Assembly (NCBI RefSeq): GCF_009184395.1
Contig: NZ_WEIC01000002.1
Location: 62,001 to 126,000, forward strand
DNA: 64,000 nucleotides
Direction of reading: 5' to 3'
Source of the DNA: Amylibacter sp. SFDW26
GTDB taxonomy: Bacteria > Pseudomonadota > Alphaproteobacteria > Rhodobacterales > Rhodobacteraceae
The translations under genes and the position numbers were made by a program. Positions 1,252 through 54,305 of the stretch are shown piece by piece (position 1 is the stretch's first letter; every line of letters starts with the position of its first letter). A model generated the notes under the pieces. The model did not search any database. It was given only the letters and a program-made list of their open reading frames with translations, and was not told the DNA's origin.

Positions 1252-1878
1252 ATGAATTTTGACACATACCTATTATTCACAGTTACGACCGCCATTATCA
1301 TCTTTTCACCAGGGCCAACCGCCATATTGGTTGCATCACAAGGCGCATCAAATGGTTTGGCACGCACGTTATTCAGTATTTTCGGTATAACGTTGGCGAC
1401 CATCACTTATTTCATATTTTCCGCAACGGGCATTGCATCTGTAATTGTTGCCTCTCATCTCATGTTTTCAATCATCAAATGGATTGGCGTTGCTTATTTA
1501 TTATATCTCGGCCTTACCGCGATATTCAGTAAATCTGGCGGCATAAGTGTAAATCGCAGCACAGTTCAGAAAAGCCGCAAAGTGCTTTTTTCACAAGGCT
1601 TTTTAGTGGAATTTTCCAACCCAAAAGCATTGTTGTATTTCGCGGCCATACTTCCGCAATTTCTGGATGTGACTAAAGCAATCTTTCCACAGGTATTAGC
1701 GATGGGTACCACAACCTTTATTCTGCAAATCATCATATATGGCGCATATTCTTATATGGGTGACCGATTGGTACGTGGCGGCGTTAAACACTGGATTATC
1801 AAAACCATCAACAAAACAGCAGGCGGTGCGCTTATCTTTGCTGGTGTAAAAATGGCCAGTGTTACAGCAAGTAACTGA
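1252..1878 (+). CDS. LysE/RhtB family amino-acid exporter
   Basis: This 208-residue inner-membrane protein has the LysE/RhtB pattern. A first helix is followed by IIFSPGPTAILVASQGASNG, the conserved loop of the family. About six hydrophobic helices follow, with the FSNPKALLYFAAILPQF segment typical of RhtB-like exporters. Members export amino acids or their analogues by proton exchange; the substrate cannot be read from sequence. It follows the Rid-family gene by ten bases and ends five bases before the convergent rmuC stop, so the two transcription units meet tail to tail. The Lrp-type regulator upstream fits amino-acid-responsive control. Confidence 0.88.
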   Translation: MNFDTYLLFTVTTAIIIFSPGPTAILVASQGASNGLARTLFSIFGITLATITYFIFSATGIASVIVASHLMFSIIKWIGVAYLLYLGLTAIFSKSGGISVNRSTVQKSRKVLFSQGFLVEFSNPKALLYFAAILPQFLDVTKAIFPQVLAMGTTTFILQIIIYGAYSYMGDRLVRGGVKHWIIKTINKTAGGALIFAGVKMASVTASN

Positions 1879-36469: not shown

Positions 36470-36587
36470 ACATATTGGTGCTTTATGGCCAATTCGCCGT
36501 ATTTCACGGTCATTTTCGCCCGCTGCCGTTAACAGGCATCCGACAGTCGCAAATCTTCTTGACCCTATCCCCTTCTAGAGTCATTAA

Positions 36588-36790
36588 GGTCGGGCATGGT
36601 TCCCCACTAGGATGCGAAGCGTCTGGGGATCAAATGGGAATGTGGACGGGGATGACCAAATCAGGGCCCTAAGCCACGACCGCCCCCGCGACTGTGTGTG
36701 GTGAGCGACTGTCAATAACGTCACTGGTGAAAACACTGGGAAGGCAAGGCAGACCGCGATGATCCACAAGTCAGGACACCAGCCAAGCAA
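36588..36790 (+). promoter_or_regulatory. Cobalamin riboswitch upstream of cobW
   Basis: The segment carries the ordered landmarks of the cobalamin riboswitch: ATCAAATGGGAATGTGG, CCCCCGCGACTGTG, CACTGGGAAGGC, GCGATGATCCACAAG and the B12 box GTCAGGACACC. Adenosylcobalamin binding normally represses downstream synthesis or uptake genes. Here cobW-cobN-cobO follow, which fits feedback control of B12 synthesis. The aptamer ends about 250 bases before cobW. Boundaries are approximate. Confidence 0.92.
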
Positions 36791-36834
36791 CCGTGGCAAC
36801 ACGGACCAAGAAAACGGACGGGGTGTTCCGTGAT

Positions 36835-49509: not shown

Positions 49510-49992
49510 ATGGCCGCAAAGAAAAAGAAACCTACGGACAACAACAAACTGATCGCTGAAAATCGGCGGGCTCGGTATGACTATGCCATCGAGGACACGA
49601 TTGAATGCGGTATGGTTTTGATGGGATCCGAGGTGAAATCCCTTCGCGGTGGTGGTGCGAATATCACGGAAAGCTATGCGGATGTTGAAGATGGTGAATT
49701 GATGCTGATCAACAGCTCTGTTGCATTGTATTCTCAAGCCCGCAACTTTGGACACGAAGAACGTCGTCGTCGTAAATTACTGGTGTCAAAACGCGAGTTG
49801 TCGAAGTTATGGCAAGCGATCGGGCGCCAAGGTATGACACTTGTGCCCTTGAAGATGTACTTCAACGAAAAAGGCCGTGTGAAGCTTTTGCTGGGTGTCG
49901 CTAAGGGTAAAAAGAACGCTGATAAACGCGATACGGAAAAGAAACGTGATTGGCAGCGCCAAAAATCCCGTTTGATGCGCGATCACGGCTAA
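49510..49992 (+). CDS. smpB: SsrA-binding protein SmpB
   Basis: The 160-residue protein has the SmpB barrel ([38 protein letters not shown]) and the basic C-terminal tail ([19 protein letters not shown]). SmpB brings tmRNA to stalled ribosomes. It sits four bases after dapA. The partner ssrA gene was not found nearby. A second rescue factor, arfB, is 4 kb downstream. Confidence 0.96.
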
Positions 49993-51344: not shown

Positions 51345-52526
51345 ATGTTAAACAATCTTAAACCACGTCCAGCTGATAAAATTCTTGTGCTGTCTACTCT
51401 GTTCCGTGCAGACGATCGCGCAGAAAAAATCGACCTTGGTGTTGGCGTTTACAAAAACGCCGAAGGCCACACACCGATTATGCGCGCTGTGAAAAGTGCT
51501 GAAAAGCAATTGTGGAATGAAGAAGATACAAAAACATACACAAGCCTGCCTGGTGACGCTGGCTTTCACCAAGCTATGGCAGACATGGTTTTGGCTGATA
51601 GCGTTGACCGTGACCGCATTTCATTTTGCGCGACACCAGGTGGCACAGGTGCCATTCACAATGTTTTGGAAACAATCCAAGCGGCACACCCAGACACAAC
51701 TGTTTGGTTAAGCAACCCATCATGGGGCAACCACCAATCTATGTTGAACCACTTGGGTATGAAATCAGTTTCTTATGATTACTTTGATGCAGAAGCTTGT
51801 GCTGTGGATTACCCAGCAATGCTTGCCAGCCTTCAAGGTGTAAAAGAGGGCGATGTCGTGTTGTTACATGGCTGCTGCCACAACCCAACAGGTGCAAACA
51901 TCAACAATACACAATGGGAAGAGGTTGCTGAATTGCTTTTGGCAAAAGGCGCTATCCCATTCGTAGACATCGCATACCAAGGGTTCGGCAACGGTTTGGA
52001 AGAAGATGCATTTGGCACACGTTTGCTGGCGTCTAAATTCCCAGAAATGATGATCGCAGCCAGCTGTTCTAAGAACTTCGGTATCTACCGCGAACGCACA
52101 GGTATCGTGATGGCCATTTCTGCGGATGCGGAAACTGCAAAAGTGACACAACAAACATTGTCACACATGAACCGTCAAAACTTTAGCTTTCCACCAGATC
52201 ACGGTGCACGTCTTGTGACAATGGTTCTAACCGATCCTGAGTTGCGCGCAGAATGGGCCGCAGAGCTGGAAGAAGTGCGCACAGGTATGTTGGCATTACG
52301 CCAACAATTGGCTGATGCATTGAAAGCAGAAACTGGTTCTGATCGTTTTGGTTTCATCGCAGATCACCGCGGAATGTTCTCGCGTCTGGGTTTGACCGAA
52401 GAACAAGTGATTAAATTGCGTGAAGACAATGCAATTTATATGGTGGGCGACAGCCGCATCAATATCGCTGGTTTAACGCAGAAAAACGTACCTATTATTG
52501 CAAAAGCTGTGGCTGCAGTTCTCTAA
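51345..52526 (+). CDS. Aromatic amino acid / aspartate aminotransferase
   Basis: This 393-residue class I aminotransferase has the AspC/TyrB opening (RADDRAEKIDLGVGVYKN), HNPTGANI, the FVDIAYQGFG segment and the PLP lysine Lys243 in CSKNFGIYRERTG. The enterobacterial AspC/TyrB subgroup matches best. It transfers amino groups between aspartate or aromatic amino acids and 2-oxoglutarate. It follows the mercaptopyruvate sulfurtransferase gene closely. Which amino acid it prefers cannot be decided by eye. Confidence 0.94.
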   Translation: MLNNLKPRPADKILVLSTLFRADDRAEKIDLGVGVYKNAEGHTPIMRAVKSAEKQLWNEEDTKTYTSLPGDAGFHQAMADMVLADSVDRDRISFCATPGGTGAIHNVLETIQAAHPDTTVWLSNPSWGNHQSMLNHLGMKSVSYDYFDAEACAVDYPAMLASLQGVKEGDVVLLHGCCHNPTGANINNTQWEEVAELLLAKGAIPFVDIAYQGFGNGLEEDAFGTRLLASKFPEMMIAASCSKNFGIYRERTGIVMAISADAETAKVTQQTLSHMNRQNFSFPPDHGARLVTMVLTDPELRAEWAAELEEVRTGMLALRQQLADALKAETGSDRFGFIADHRGMFSRLGLTEEQVIKLREDNAIYMVGDSRINIAGLTQKNVPIIAKAVAAVL

Positions 52527-52664
52527 ATATAGGGGCTGATCACACTCTTTTCTCAACATTTTGCGCAATTGTTACAAAAAAACGTTTGGAAATTTCGCAA
52601 AGTCGTTGCATGATTCACTTATCGGCAACAGCCGGTCAAAGTAAACAATCGAAAGGAGGTGCCA

Positions 52665-52721
52665 ATGATTATTGGGAAACAGGAGCAGCTGGTGAAGGAT
52701 ACGTGCGAGGTGACGACCTAG
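52665..52721 (+). CDS. 18-residue mini-ORF inside the candidate RNA
   Basis: The frame reads MIIGKQEQLVKDTCEVTT then TAG. GGAGG ends about five bases before the ATG within AAAGGAGGTG, nearly fully complementary to the 16S rRNA 3' end, so translation is likely. The peptide has no signal sequence, membrane helix or amino-acid run typical of attenuation leaders. Ribosomes on it would cover GAGGTG at 52707-52712 (Glu-Val codons) and so change the RNA fold. Confidence 0.5.
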   Translation: MIIGKQEQLVKDTCEVTT

Positions 52722-52794
52722 GGGGCAGCCCCTCTACTAGACATCTGGCTTCAAGATTTTCTAATCTTGCTTGGCCACCTCTAAATCTCGAGAC

Positions 52795-52824
52795 GAGCCC
52801 GCATTCCTTGGTGCGGGCTCTTTC
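52795..52824 (+). terminator. Intrinsic terminator of the candidate RNA
   Basis: A perfect nine-pair stem (GAGCCCGCA at 52795-52803 with TGCGGGCTC at 52812-52820) with an eight-base loop is followed by TTTC. It separates the RNA from lacI. Confidence 0.88.
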
Positions 52825-52839
52825 AATTGAAGAATACTA

Positions 52840-52881
52840 ACTTAGTCTTTATATCGGTTGCTAATGGAATAAGGACTAAGT
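52840..52881 (+). promoter_or_regulatory. Stem covering the lacI ribosome binding site
   Basis: ACTTAGTC at 52840-52847 pairs perfectly with GACTAAGT at 52874-52881. Three more pairs (one G-U) extend the stem inwards to 52850/52871, enclosing a 20-base loop. The AAGGA ribosome binding site of lacI (52871-52875) lies within the stem, and the ATG follows one base later. The same inverted repeat could instead be a DNA operator for LacI autoregulation. Confidence 0.55.
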
Positions 52882-52882
52882 C

Positions 52883-53887
52883 ATGGCACGTCGCCCAACA
52901 CTTAAAGATGTTGCACAAATTGCCCGTGTCAGTGAAATGACAGCATCACGCGTTTTACGTGGCAAAGGAGAGGCATCCGCCTATACATGCGACCGTGTCC
53001 GCGATGCTGCGAAAACCTTGGGATATGTGCCCAATCAGATTGCAGGGTCTTTATCCTCTAACCGCGTGAATTTGGTGGGCGTGATTGTACCATCGGTCAG
53101 TAGTTCGGTTTTTTCAGAAGTTTTAACAGGCATCATCAACGTTTTAAAAGAAACGCAATTACAGCCTGTTTTTGGTGTGACTGGTTATGACTTAGACACT
53201 GAAGAGACGGTTATTCGCCAAATGCTATCATGGCAGCCAAGTGGTGTTATTCTGGCTGGATTAGAGCACACAGAAACCGCTCGTCGTATGTTGCAAAACG
53301 CTGGCATTCCAATTGCCGAGATCATGGATACGGATGGTGATCCCGTTGATATGAACATCGGTATCTCGCACGAAAAAGCAGGATACGAGATGGGGCAGAT
53401 GTTTGTGGAACGTGGATATAAAAAGATCGGGTTCATCGGTACAAAAACCGAAACAGATTACCGTGCCACAAAACGGTTGCGTGGTTTTGAACGGGCTTTA
53501 TCCGAAGCAAACCTATCCATCATTGACCGTGAGTTTTACACAGGATCATCCTCCCTGATCATCGGGAAAGATATTACCAAGATGCTGTTGGATCGCAGCC
53601 CAGATTTGGACTGCATCTATTATTCAGGTGATATGATGGCCTCTGGCGGTTTGATGCATTGTTTGCAAAACGACATTTCCGTACCCAACCAACTGGGGCT
53701 AGCGGGTTTTAACGGCTTGGACATTCGCGAAGGGTTGCCAGCTTTGACAGCTACAACATATGCATTCCGCAAAGAAATCGGTGAAGCGGCGGCAAAGATG
53801 ATTGTTGCAGCAAAAAACTCTGAAAAAACACGCACAGGGGAAAAAATCAGTTTTGATCCTGTCATCCATATCGGCGATACGTTGTGA
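52883..53887 (+). CDS. LacI family transcriptional regulator
   Basis: The 334-residue protein has the LacI helix-turn-helix (PTLKDVAQIARVSEMTASRV, then LRGKGEASAYTCDRV) and a hinge with AGSLSSNRVNLVGVIVPS. A periplasmic-binding-like effector domain follows (about 60-330). It resembles gluconate-type repressors (GntR of the LacI family). Its targets are not adjacent: only arfB follows, overlapping closely. The ribosome binding site is buried in a potential stem, and an inverted repeat upstream could be an autoregulatory operator. Confidence 0.92.
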   Translation: MARRPTLKDVAQIARVSEMTASRVLRGKGEASAYTCDRVRDAAKTLGYVPNQIAGSLSSNRVNLVGVIVPSVSSSVFSEVLTGIINVLKETQLQPVFGVTGYDLDTEETVIRQMLSWQPSGVILAGLEHTETARRMLQNAGIPIAEIMDTDGDPVDMNIGISHEKAGYEMGQMFVERGYKKIGFIGTKTETDYRATKRLRGFERALSEANLSIIDREFYTGSSSLIIGKDITKMLLDRSPDLDCIYYSGDMMASGGLMHCLQNDISVPNQLGLAGFNGLDIREGLPALTATTYAFRKEIGEAAAKMIVAAKNSEKTRTGEKISFDPVIHIGDTL

Positions 53888-53888
53888 T

Positions 53889-54305
53889 ATGATAAAAATT
53901 TCCGACAGTATCGCATTGGAAGACTGGGAAATCACCGAAAGTTTCCATCGTTCATCAGGCCCAGGTGGTCAGAATGTGAATAAAGTTTCTACGGCTGTAG
54001 AGTTGCGGTTCGAAGCTGCACGTTCCCCGAACTTACCACCCTATGTAAAGAACCGCTTACGAACTTTAGCGGGACGAAAATGGACCAAGGATGGTGCATT
54101 GATTATCACGGCTGAAAAGCATCGTTCGCAAGCTATGAACCGCGAATTGGCGATGGAAAAATTGGTAGCTTTGATCCTGAAAGCAACAGAACGCCCCAAA
54201 TACCGTGTTAAGACGCGCCCCACACTCGCATCTAAACGTCGTAGGCTTGAGGGTAAAAAACAACGCTCTCAAATCAAATCATTGCGCGGCAAAATTTCCG
54301 AGTAA
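53889..54305 (+). CDS. arfB: Alternative ribosome-rescue factor ArfB (peptidyl-tRNA hydrolase)
   Basis: This 138-residue protein has the catalytic GGQ at residues 26-28 in SSGPGGQNVNKVSTAVEL. Its long basic C-terminal tail (LASKRRRLEGKKQRSQIKSL) inserts in the empty mRNA channel. It hydrolyses peptidyl-tRNA on stalled ribosomes when tmRNA is overwhelmed. ATG 53889 lies one base after the lacI stop, so translation is coupled. smpB is in the same window. Confidence 0.94.
   Translation: MIKISDSIALEDWEITESFHRSSGPGGQNVNKVSTAVELRFEAARSPNLPPYVKNRLRTLAGRKWTKDGALIITAEKHRSQAMNRELAMEKLVALILKATERPKYRVKTRPTLASKRRRLEGKKQRSQIKSLRGKISE

Follow-up and report, generated by a model that had tools for sequence, protein, structure and literature searches.

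What kind of gene lies in the short space before the lacI-type gene at 52883 of the window (the whole 64,000-nucleotide stretch analysed here)? An earlier note, made from the letters alone, had placed at 52648..52824 a candidate small RNA with a mini-ORF and two mutually exclusive folds, either a dual-function RNA or a translation-sensing leader, and could match it to no known family. On direct reading, all of the features that it named are present at the coordinates it gave, but the gene extends beyond that interval, as promoter-like hexamers (52586-52614) and a 5′ hairpin (52621-52636) precede it. It consists of a conserved promoter-like box, a presumed RNA of about 190-205 nucleotides, and a terminator. 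Its parts and its downstream neighbours are as follows.

52586..52614, + strand: promoter-like hexamer pair TTGGAA-N17-CATGAT, conserved in the genus by eye and below the threshold of the pattern scan
52621..52636, + strand: 5′ hairpin AUCGGC/GCCGGU, predicted by folding, near the presumed transcript start
52651..52661, + strand: extended ribosome binding site GAAAGGAGGTG, read from the sequence
52665..52721, + strand: 18-codon frame MIIGKQEQLVKDTCEVTT, with ATG at 52665 and TAG at 52719-52721
52656-52661 and 52707-52712, + strand: the two GAGGTG copies read from the sequence, the first in the binding site and the second, which is not conserved, in codons 15-16
52719..52736, + strand: stop-codon hairpin UAGGGGG-CAGC-CCCUCUA, supported by the pairing of the stop bases against shuffles
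52752..52769, + strand: lineage-specific hairpin CAAGAUU/AAUCUUG, with changes on both sides at 6 of 7 pairs in 25 copies
52776..52782, + strand: CACCUCU (CACCTC at 52776-52781), complement of the binding site, forming the putative closing helix P1 with 52655-52661 by 7 of 7 pairs
52795..52823, + strand: intrinsic terminator, a stem at 52795-52820 followed by TTT
52883..53887, + strand: lacI/gntR-type regulator gene (Pfam LacI), a neighbour outside the RNA
53889..54305, + strand: arfB (NCBIfam equivalog ArfB; 184.4 bits, cut-off 100), the gene that most often follows the RNA in the family

The predicted fold of 52620-52840 has an energy of -75.4 kcal/mol (z -2.83), and 2 of 200 shuffles were as stable. 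A plain pattern scan of the locus gave one terminator-like site against 0.7 in shuffles, which is the chance level, and no promoter-like site on the + strand. Since the scan was not above chance, the support for the element comes from comparison. A candidate promoter, TTGAAG-N17-TATATC at 52827-52855, was seen by eye between the terminator and the lacI-type gene and is absent from the scan list. A tRNA or tmRNA search of the window found none, and of the Rfam families only a cobalamin riboswitch (36580-36801, 102.1 bits) exceeded its cut-off there. When 52520-52890 was searched permissively, the best match was MicC (27.5 bits against 90), and CC2171 (RF01867) reached 17.8 bits against its gathering score of 75. 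The earlier failure to place the RNA in a known family was thus borne out, in that no Rfam match above the gathering score exists at the element.

Distribution and the 18-codon frame

Is this RNA gene found beyond the nearest relatives? A search with the DNA of 52600-52840 gave matches in 26 of 61 genomes, namely 25 of the 33 genomes of the window's genus (its own genome included) and one of another genus of the family. Alignment A1 comprises 25 copies, 24 of the genus and one of another genus (L024), after a copy with Ns (L023) and one at a contig edge (L027) had been dropped. A model built from the genus copies (R1) gave one place each in 100 of 295 family genomes; one partial match at which the element is absent (L144) was dropped and nine copies from an 11-mer search were added, giving 108 copies. 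The R1 loci are biased to the 18-codon form from which the model was made, whereas the 11-mer search is free of that bias. The exact 11-mer GAAAGGAGGTG occurs at 40 places in 21 family genomes, with one to four per genome (29 for a reversed control pattern), and the 20 places that were read yielded seven further 18-codon copies missed by R1 and two copies with 26 and 31 codons. Alignment A2 holds 91 copies, that is, the 99 with 18 codons minus eight with long inserts or an unclear terminator (L064, L076, L098, L106, L114, L146, L147, and L150). The model made from it (R2) matched 268 of 295 Rhodobacteraceae genomes, or 267 of 294 genera, and 238 of the 260 better genomes; the count of 268 includes weak matches, was made without a decoy-genome control and with rough E-values, and some genomes have two to four matches. 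The gene is therefore not confined to close strains but extends over the family. The motif AAGGAGGTG is identical in 91 of 91 copies of A2, partly by construction, since agreement with the binding site at 9 or more of its 11 letters served to locate the copies.

Does the window copy belong to the same family as these? A profile of the RNA body, built without the window lineage, scored 6.5-22.4 bits in 18 of the 26 copies L001-L026 (8.1 bits in the window) and found nothing in the other eight, while the best of 520 shuffles reached 3.7. Since the matches lie above the shuffles and the slot beside arfB is shared, the window copy is a member of that family.

The frame is exactly 18 codons long in 25 of 25 genus-set copies without Ns, all of which end in TAG, and in 99 of 108 family copies, counted by a start rule that is blind to length. 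The start and the stop vary among the 99 copies: GTG occurs 76 times, ATG 18 times, and TTG five times as the start, and TAG occurs 47 times, TGA 35 times, and TAA 17 times as the stop. Synonymous single changes number 5390 against 3616 expected in the frame (1.49; other frames 0.96 and 1.05) in the family and 484 against 338 (1.43; other frames 1.00 and 1.15) in the genus set, in both cases over sequence pairs that are not independent. Because the excess appears in that frame only, the frame has been translated. Thus, the small RNA with a mini-ORF proposed in the earlier note held up, and comparison of the sequences shows that the mini-ORF was translated over evolution.

The commonest residues of the peptide are about MSREILERGVGTVRE, followed by three variable ones, and those of the window copy are MIIGKQEQLVKDTCEVTT. 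E7 is conserved in 96, V10 in 90, G11 in 80, and T12 in 81 of the 99 copies, and the last five residues are variable. Judged by eye, the peptides are charged and unlike membrane-spanning segments. Conservation also goes beyond the codons: Leu6 is TTG in 67 of the 73 copies with Leu, and Arg3 is AGA in 67 of 67. Longer mini-ORFs with a CC2171-like look also occur in the family, with 26, 26, and 31 codons (L139:1501-1690, L158:777-990, and L160:1033-1251, respectively).

A TTGACA box (at least 5 of 6 matches, from -65 to -30 relative to the binding site) precedes 74 of 99 copies against a shuffled expectation of 16.9, and 66 of 99 have a TTGACA-like box at -52 to -50. Scoring without a shuffled control gave a terminator, a hairpin plus a T-rich tail, in 99 of 99 copies, with a weak one in L064. 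The terminator stems often keep AAGGGCCG..CGGCCCUU across genera (e.g., L115 and L164), beyond what a terminator would seem to need.

Stop-codon hairpin, probable closing helix, and alternative folds

How is the RNA folded, and does the fold bear on translation? The stop codon forms part of the 5′ strand of a hairpin whose loop is of the CAGC type, and the partner triplet varies with the identity of the stop: UAA faces mostly UUA or UUG, UGA faces UUG or UCG, and UAG faces CUG, CUA, or UUA/UUG. In 78 of 99 copies, each of the three stop bases has a pairing partner, against 60.2 ± 2.6 copies (the highest was 71 in 2000 shuffles) when the partners were exchanged among sequences of the same spacing. 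The comparison shows that the stop codon sits in a hairpin covarying with its identity. Taken over all copies, the aligned sequences show a conserved gene with a promoter box at a fixed place, a terminator, an 18-codon frame, and a covarying stop hairpin.

The consensus fold of the 91 copies consists of P1 (GGAGGUG with CAYCUCC), a start-codon hairpin (P2), two helices that join the frame and the 3′ part (P3 and P4), the stop hairpin, and the terminator. Compensatory changes on both sides occur at 33 of 47 pairs (shuffles 23.1 ± 1.8; slid versions 18-28, a comparison that is flattered because A2 was aligned by sequence and the structure was predicted from A2 itself). The cells with both-side changes number 301 against 98.8 ± 11.9 in shuffles; such cell and pair counts come from related sequences and hence are not independent events. 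The terminator has both-side changes at 11 of 12 stem pairs in the 91 copies. The pairs of P2, P3, and P4 are formed in 87, 92, and 74% outside the window lineage against 44, 49, and 37% within it (7 rows of A2), while the corresponding values are 98 and 100% for P1, 91 and 100% for the inner stop hairpin, and 96 and 99% for the terminator. Thus, the whole family fold does not hold in the window, and a single fold for the entire family was ruled out by the failure of P2-P4 to form in the window lineage. For the rest of the family, though not for the window lineage, the alignment shows covarying helices that involve the start codon and the frame. Within the genus alignment of 25 copies, the stop hairpin, the downstream hairpin, and the terminator have both-side changes. 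The arms of the 5′ hairpin, compared by eye, change together (ACCGGG/CCUGGU in L015), and this hairpin is absent from L019, L024, L025, and L026. The search for compensatory changes suggested by the earlier note therefore succeeded for the stop hairpin, the downstream hairpin, and the terminator, but the pairing between the binding site and CACCUC varies by G-U only.

That pairing, P1, has all seven pairs in the window and its lineage, and 98.1% of its cells are paired in the 91 copies. The 68 departing cells comprise 56 that keep a G-U pair and 12 that break it, and none represents a change on both sides. The lack of both-side changes is explained by the fixation of the site by the 16S rRNA, so that covariation cannot prove P1. 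The predicted mean pair probability of P1 is 0.92 in the window, with a median of 0.95 and values over 0.5 in 79 of 99 copies, and the predicted cost of keeping the site and the start open has a median of 14.4 kcal/mol in the 99 copies, both computed without a shuffled control. The binding site is likely paired with CAYCUCC near the 3′ end and shut in the finished RNA.

A second fold may compete with P1. An upstream GGYG can pair with the CRCC of CRCCUCC, and outside the CAUCUCC group the U-A and C-G combinations prevail over the others (26 and 16 against 7 and 12; Fisher p 0.007, uncorrected for descent) among 61 of the 91 sequences, 21 of the CAUCUCC group and nine with other combinations having been set aside. 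The earlier idea of two exclusive folds therefore survives in its CACCUC-dependent part, and the competition of this hairpin with P1 is its better-supported version. The part that had the fold switching between the two GAGGTG copies was ruled out: only 13 of the 25 sequences of A1 have the second GAGGTG unchanged, so it is not conserved. GGAGG occurs within codons 12-17 in 44 of 99 family copies.

The binding site matches the 3′ end of the 16S rRNA over 11 nucleotides in the window and over 17 in the GAAAGGAGGTGATCCAG copies, by eye against L157, which I take to be the 16S end. The leading explanation, which I favour only tentatively, is that the locus is a small RNA gene of the Rhodobacteraceae, transcribed on its own, whose product serves both as a small mRNA and as a structured RNA, in which ribosome loading is set against the closure of P1. 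The binding site would emerge from the polymerase about 120 nucleotides before its complement. A ribosome might load in that interval, translate the 18 codons, and open the stop hairpin. After synthesis of the 3′ part and departure of the ribosome, P1 would shut the site, and the RNA would stay folded and untranslated. The hairpin formed with the first bases of CACCUCC would compete with P1 and keep the site open. The order of loading first and closing later is purely conjectural. Translation and folding of the RNA would be mutually exclusive, as the binding site and the stop both appear to be folded in. The RNA may thereby report or limit ribosome loading, and its product may be small quantities of a short peptide, the closed RNA, or both.

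Could the gene instead be an ordinary small mRNA that makes an 18-residue peptide, with a structure that merely tunes translation and stability? The fixed length, the synonymous excess, the conserved E7, V10, G11, and T12, the strong binding site, the gene's own promoter box and terminator, and the loss of the inner helices from the window lineage all fit this, and the fairly conserved peptide core counts against the preferred explanation because an ordinary peptide gene would also have it. It is rather unlikely, however, given the variable last five residues, the nucleotide conservation beyond the codons, the covarying long-range helices from the frame to the 3′ part in the rest of the family, and the binding site that is predicted to be shut.

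Ribosomes on the site might also free CACCUCC, which would then pair with the binding sites of other mRNAs, an action that the earlier note had suggested. The CCUCC core is indeed kept, with columns 163-167 of A2 being C/U, C, U, C, and C in at least 87 of 91 copies each. However, the segment is already explained by its pairing with the RNA's own site, and according to the part of the Caulobacter study that was available, only 24.6% of genes carry such a site in that organism (PMC4117421). A trans-acting regulator of this kind is quite improbable.

Neighbouring genes and related RNAs

Is the RNA a leader of arfB? The usual slot of the gene is between a Vut_1 transporter gene, which I take to be of the queuosine precursor transporter type, and arfB. 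In 88 of 99 family loci, arfB follows the RNA on the same strand at a distance of no more than about 1.5 kb; it starts within 330 nucleotides in 81 of the 88, and SD-like sites precede it in 24 of the 88. These findings would suit a leader or attenuator in which translation of the mini-ORF sets the read-through into the ribosome-rescue gene. However, the terminator described above was scored in all 99 copies, and the upstream transporter gene is equally constant (90 of 99 loci), so that conserved gene order suffices as an explanation. arfB is absent within about 1.5 kb downstream in 11 of 99 loci, and a mechanical ORF list places the next long ORF on the other strand in 7 of these 11. No antiterminator was found among the helices of the consensus fold. 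Moreover, a -10-like box lies 4-9 nucleotides upstream of the arfB start in 18 of 88 loci, which is weakly positive against 6.2 ± 2.3 in shuffles; as SD-like sites are few and these boxes lie at leaderless distance, the sequences suggest that some members of the family may have a leaderless arfB. The arfB leader is accordingly a doubtful reading, slightly more so than a trans-acting RNA.

The window departs from the usual slot. An aminotransferase gene lies upstream of the RNA, and the lacI-type gene separates the RNA from arfB. This gene order is found in L001-L004, and a lacI-type gene also follows the RNA in L006, where the contig ends before arfB. The translation-sensing leader considered in the earlier note thus finds no support in the window, where the RNA ends in a terminator of its own and is followed by a lacI-type regulator gene; in other genomes, arfB usually takes that place. 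The terminator and the loci without arfB nearby, where the next long ORF is often on the other strand, indicate that the RNA unit is an independent gene. It is linked to arfB at least by shared gene order and perhaps also by regulation. Two ribosome-rescue genes, smpB (49510-49992) and arfB (53889-54305), lie less than 5 kb apart in the window with the RNA gene between them.

The arfA and brfA genes are controlled by a hairpin or a terminator in the frame, according to the available part of PMC8012679. On that account, they resemble the present locus in having a rescue-factor gene nearby and a terminator close to a frame, but here the terminator follows a separate mini-ORF with its own stop, and arfB is a separate downstream frame.

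How does the 18-codon RNA relate to CC2171 of Caulobacter? The two share CAACAA..GAAAGGAGGTGATCC, a mini-ORF (18-35 codons in the CC2171 copies examined), a terminator, and a length of about 160-190 nucleotides, but they differ in the body, which gives no clear match, and in the neighbour genes. RF01867 scored 23.5-42.4 bits on eight of 10 family loci and gave none at E up to 0.5 on the other two (L066 and L068); in the class it matched 25 of 142 genomes, five of them above cut-off. R2 matched 55 of 240 class genomes, including three from its own family, and coincided in place with RF01867 in 20 of 27 cases. The CC2171-type test set consisted of 23 of the 27 places (L028, L051, and L054 were left out, and L048 is a family copy), and R2 matched 23 of 23 of them with E from 5.5e-12 to 0.0098. 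In contrast, R3, a model of the body without the binding site and the terminator that has only four base pairs, matched none of the 23 at the element, and the body profile made without the window lineage gave at most 4.3 bits on these loci, near the 3.7 of the best of 520 shuffles. Thus, the resemblance is due to the binding site and the terminator. Membership in CC2171 was not upheld, given the score of 17.8 bits against 75 and the body models, which match no CC2171-type locus clearly, and the 18-codon RNA seems to be built to the same plan without being a member. Divergence from a CC2171 body beyond detection is possible, and L139, a 26-codon form directly before arfB, gives a hint of common descent with the CC2171 kind. 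In one alphaproteobacterium, the SRP RNA gene lies directly behind a CC2171-type element (L033:1306-1402 and 1501-1645, minus strand).

Two earlier predicted ncRNAs of Caulobacter are translated, according to the available part of Schrader 2014 (PMC4117421), and a Mesorhizobium study, in its available part, lists only a CC2171 match (PMC5596092). rnTrpL/peTrpL of Sinorhizobium is a small RNA that also encodes a short peptide (PMC10117765, available in part), and Spot 42 is likewise peptide-encoding by a title cited there; the peptides of the two have 14-15 residues. The 18-codon RNA is like both in combining a small RNA with a short peptide, and the translated frame that marks a dual-function RNA is present in it on evolutionary evidence. 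Unlike them, it has no trp attenuator and no known target, and its stop codon lies in a conserved hairpin. A search of the papers available found no description of this Rhodobacteraceae RNA gene; the available parts of small-RNA papers on Rhodobacter and Ruegeria (PMC4809877, PMC3320616, and PMC6238624) held nothing attributable to it, and the terms sought were absent from PMC11005374.

Type I toxin mRNAs are among the small mRNAs closed by long-range 5′-3′ pairing. A toxin mRNA with such a closed inactive form would share the small peptide and the masking of the binding site by a complementary segment close to the 3′ end, but this is extremely improbable, as the peptides are charged and by eye neither hydrophobic nor membrane-spanning, the gene is present in most sampled genera at a mostly constant place, and no antisense RNA is known (a pattern scan alone gave two promoter-like sites on the minus strand, where 1.0 was expected for both strands together).

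A bolder and unlikely idea is that of a family-wide RNA class that measures the ribosome supply by imitation. Such an RNA would carry a near-perfect partner of the 16S 3′ end and, 120 nucleotides later, an imitation of that end. While the RNA is being transcribed, ribosomes and the imitation would vie for one site, and the 18-codon frame, its stop locked in a hairpin, would fix where the ribosome lets go. If true, the mostly constant place beside the rescue factor gene arfB would fit the sensing of ribosome loss. A structured and translated RNA gene is matched in about 90% of the sampled genera of a well-studied family, without an Rfam match above cut-off in the window. It provides a natural case of a hairpin that covaries with stop-codon identity, and the sharing of one RNA between folding and translation becomes testable in common laboratory strains of Rhodobacteraceae.
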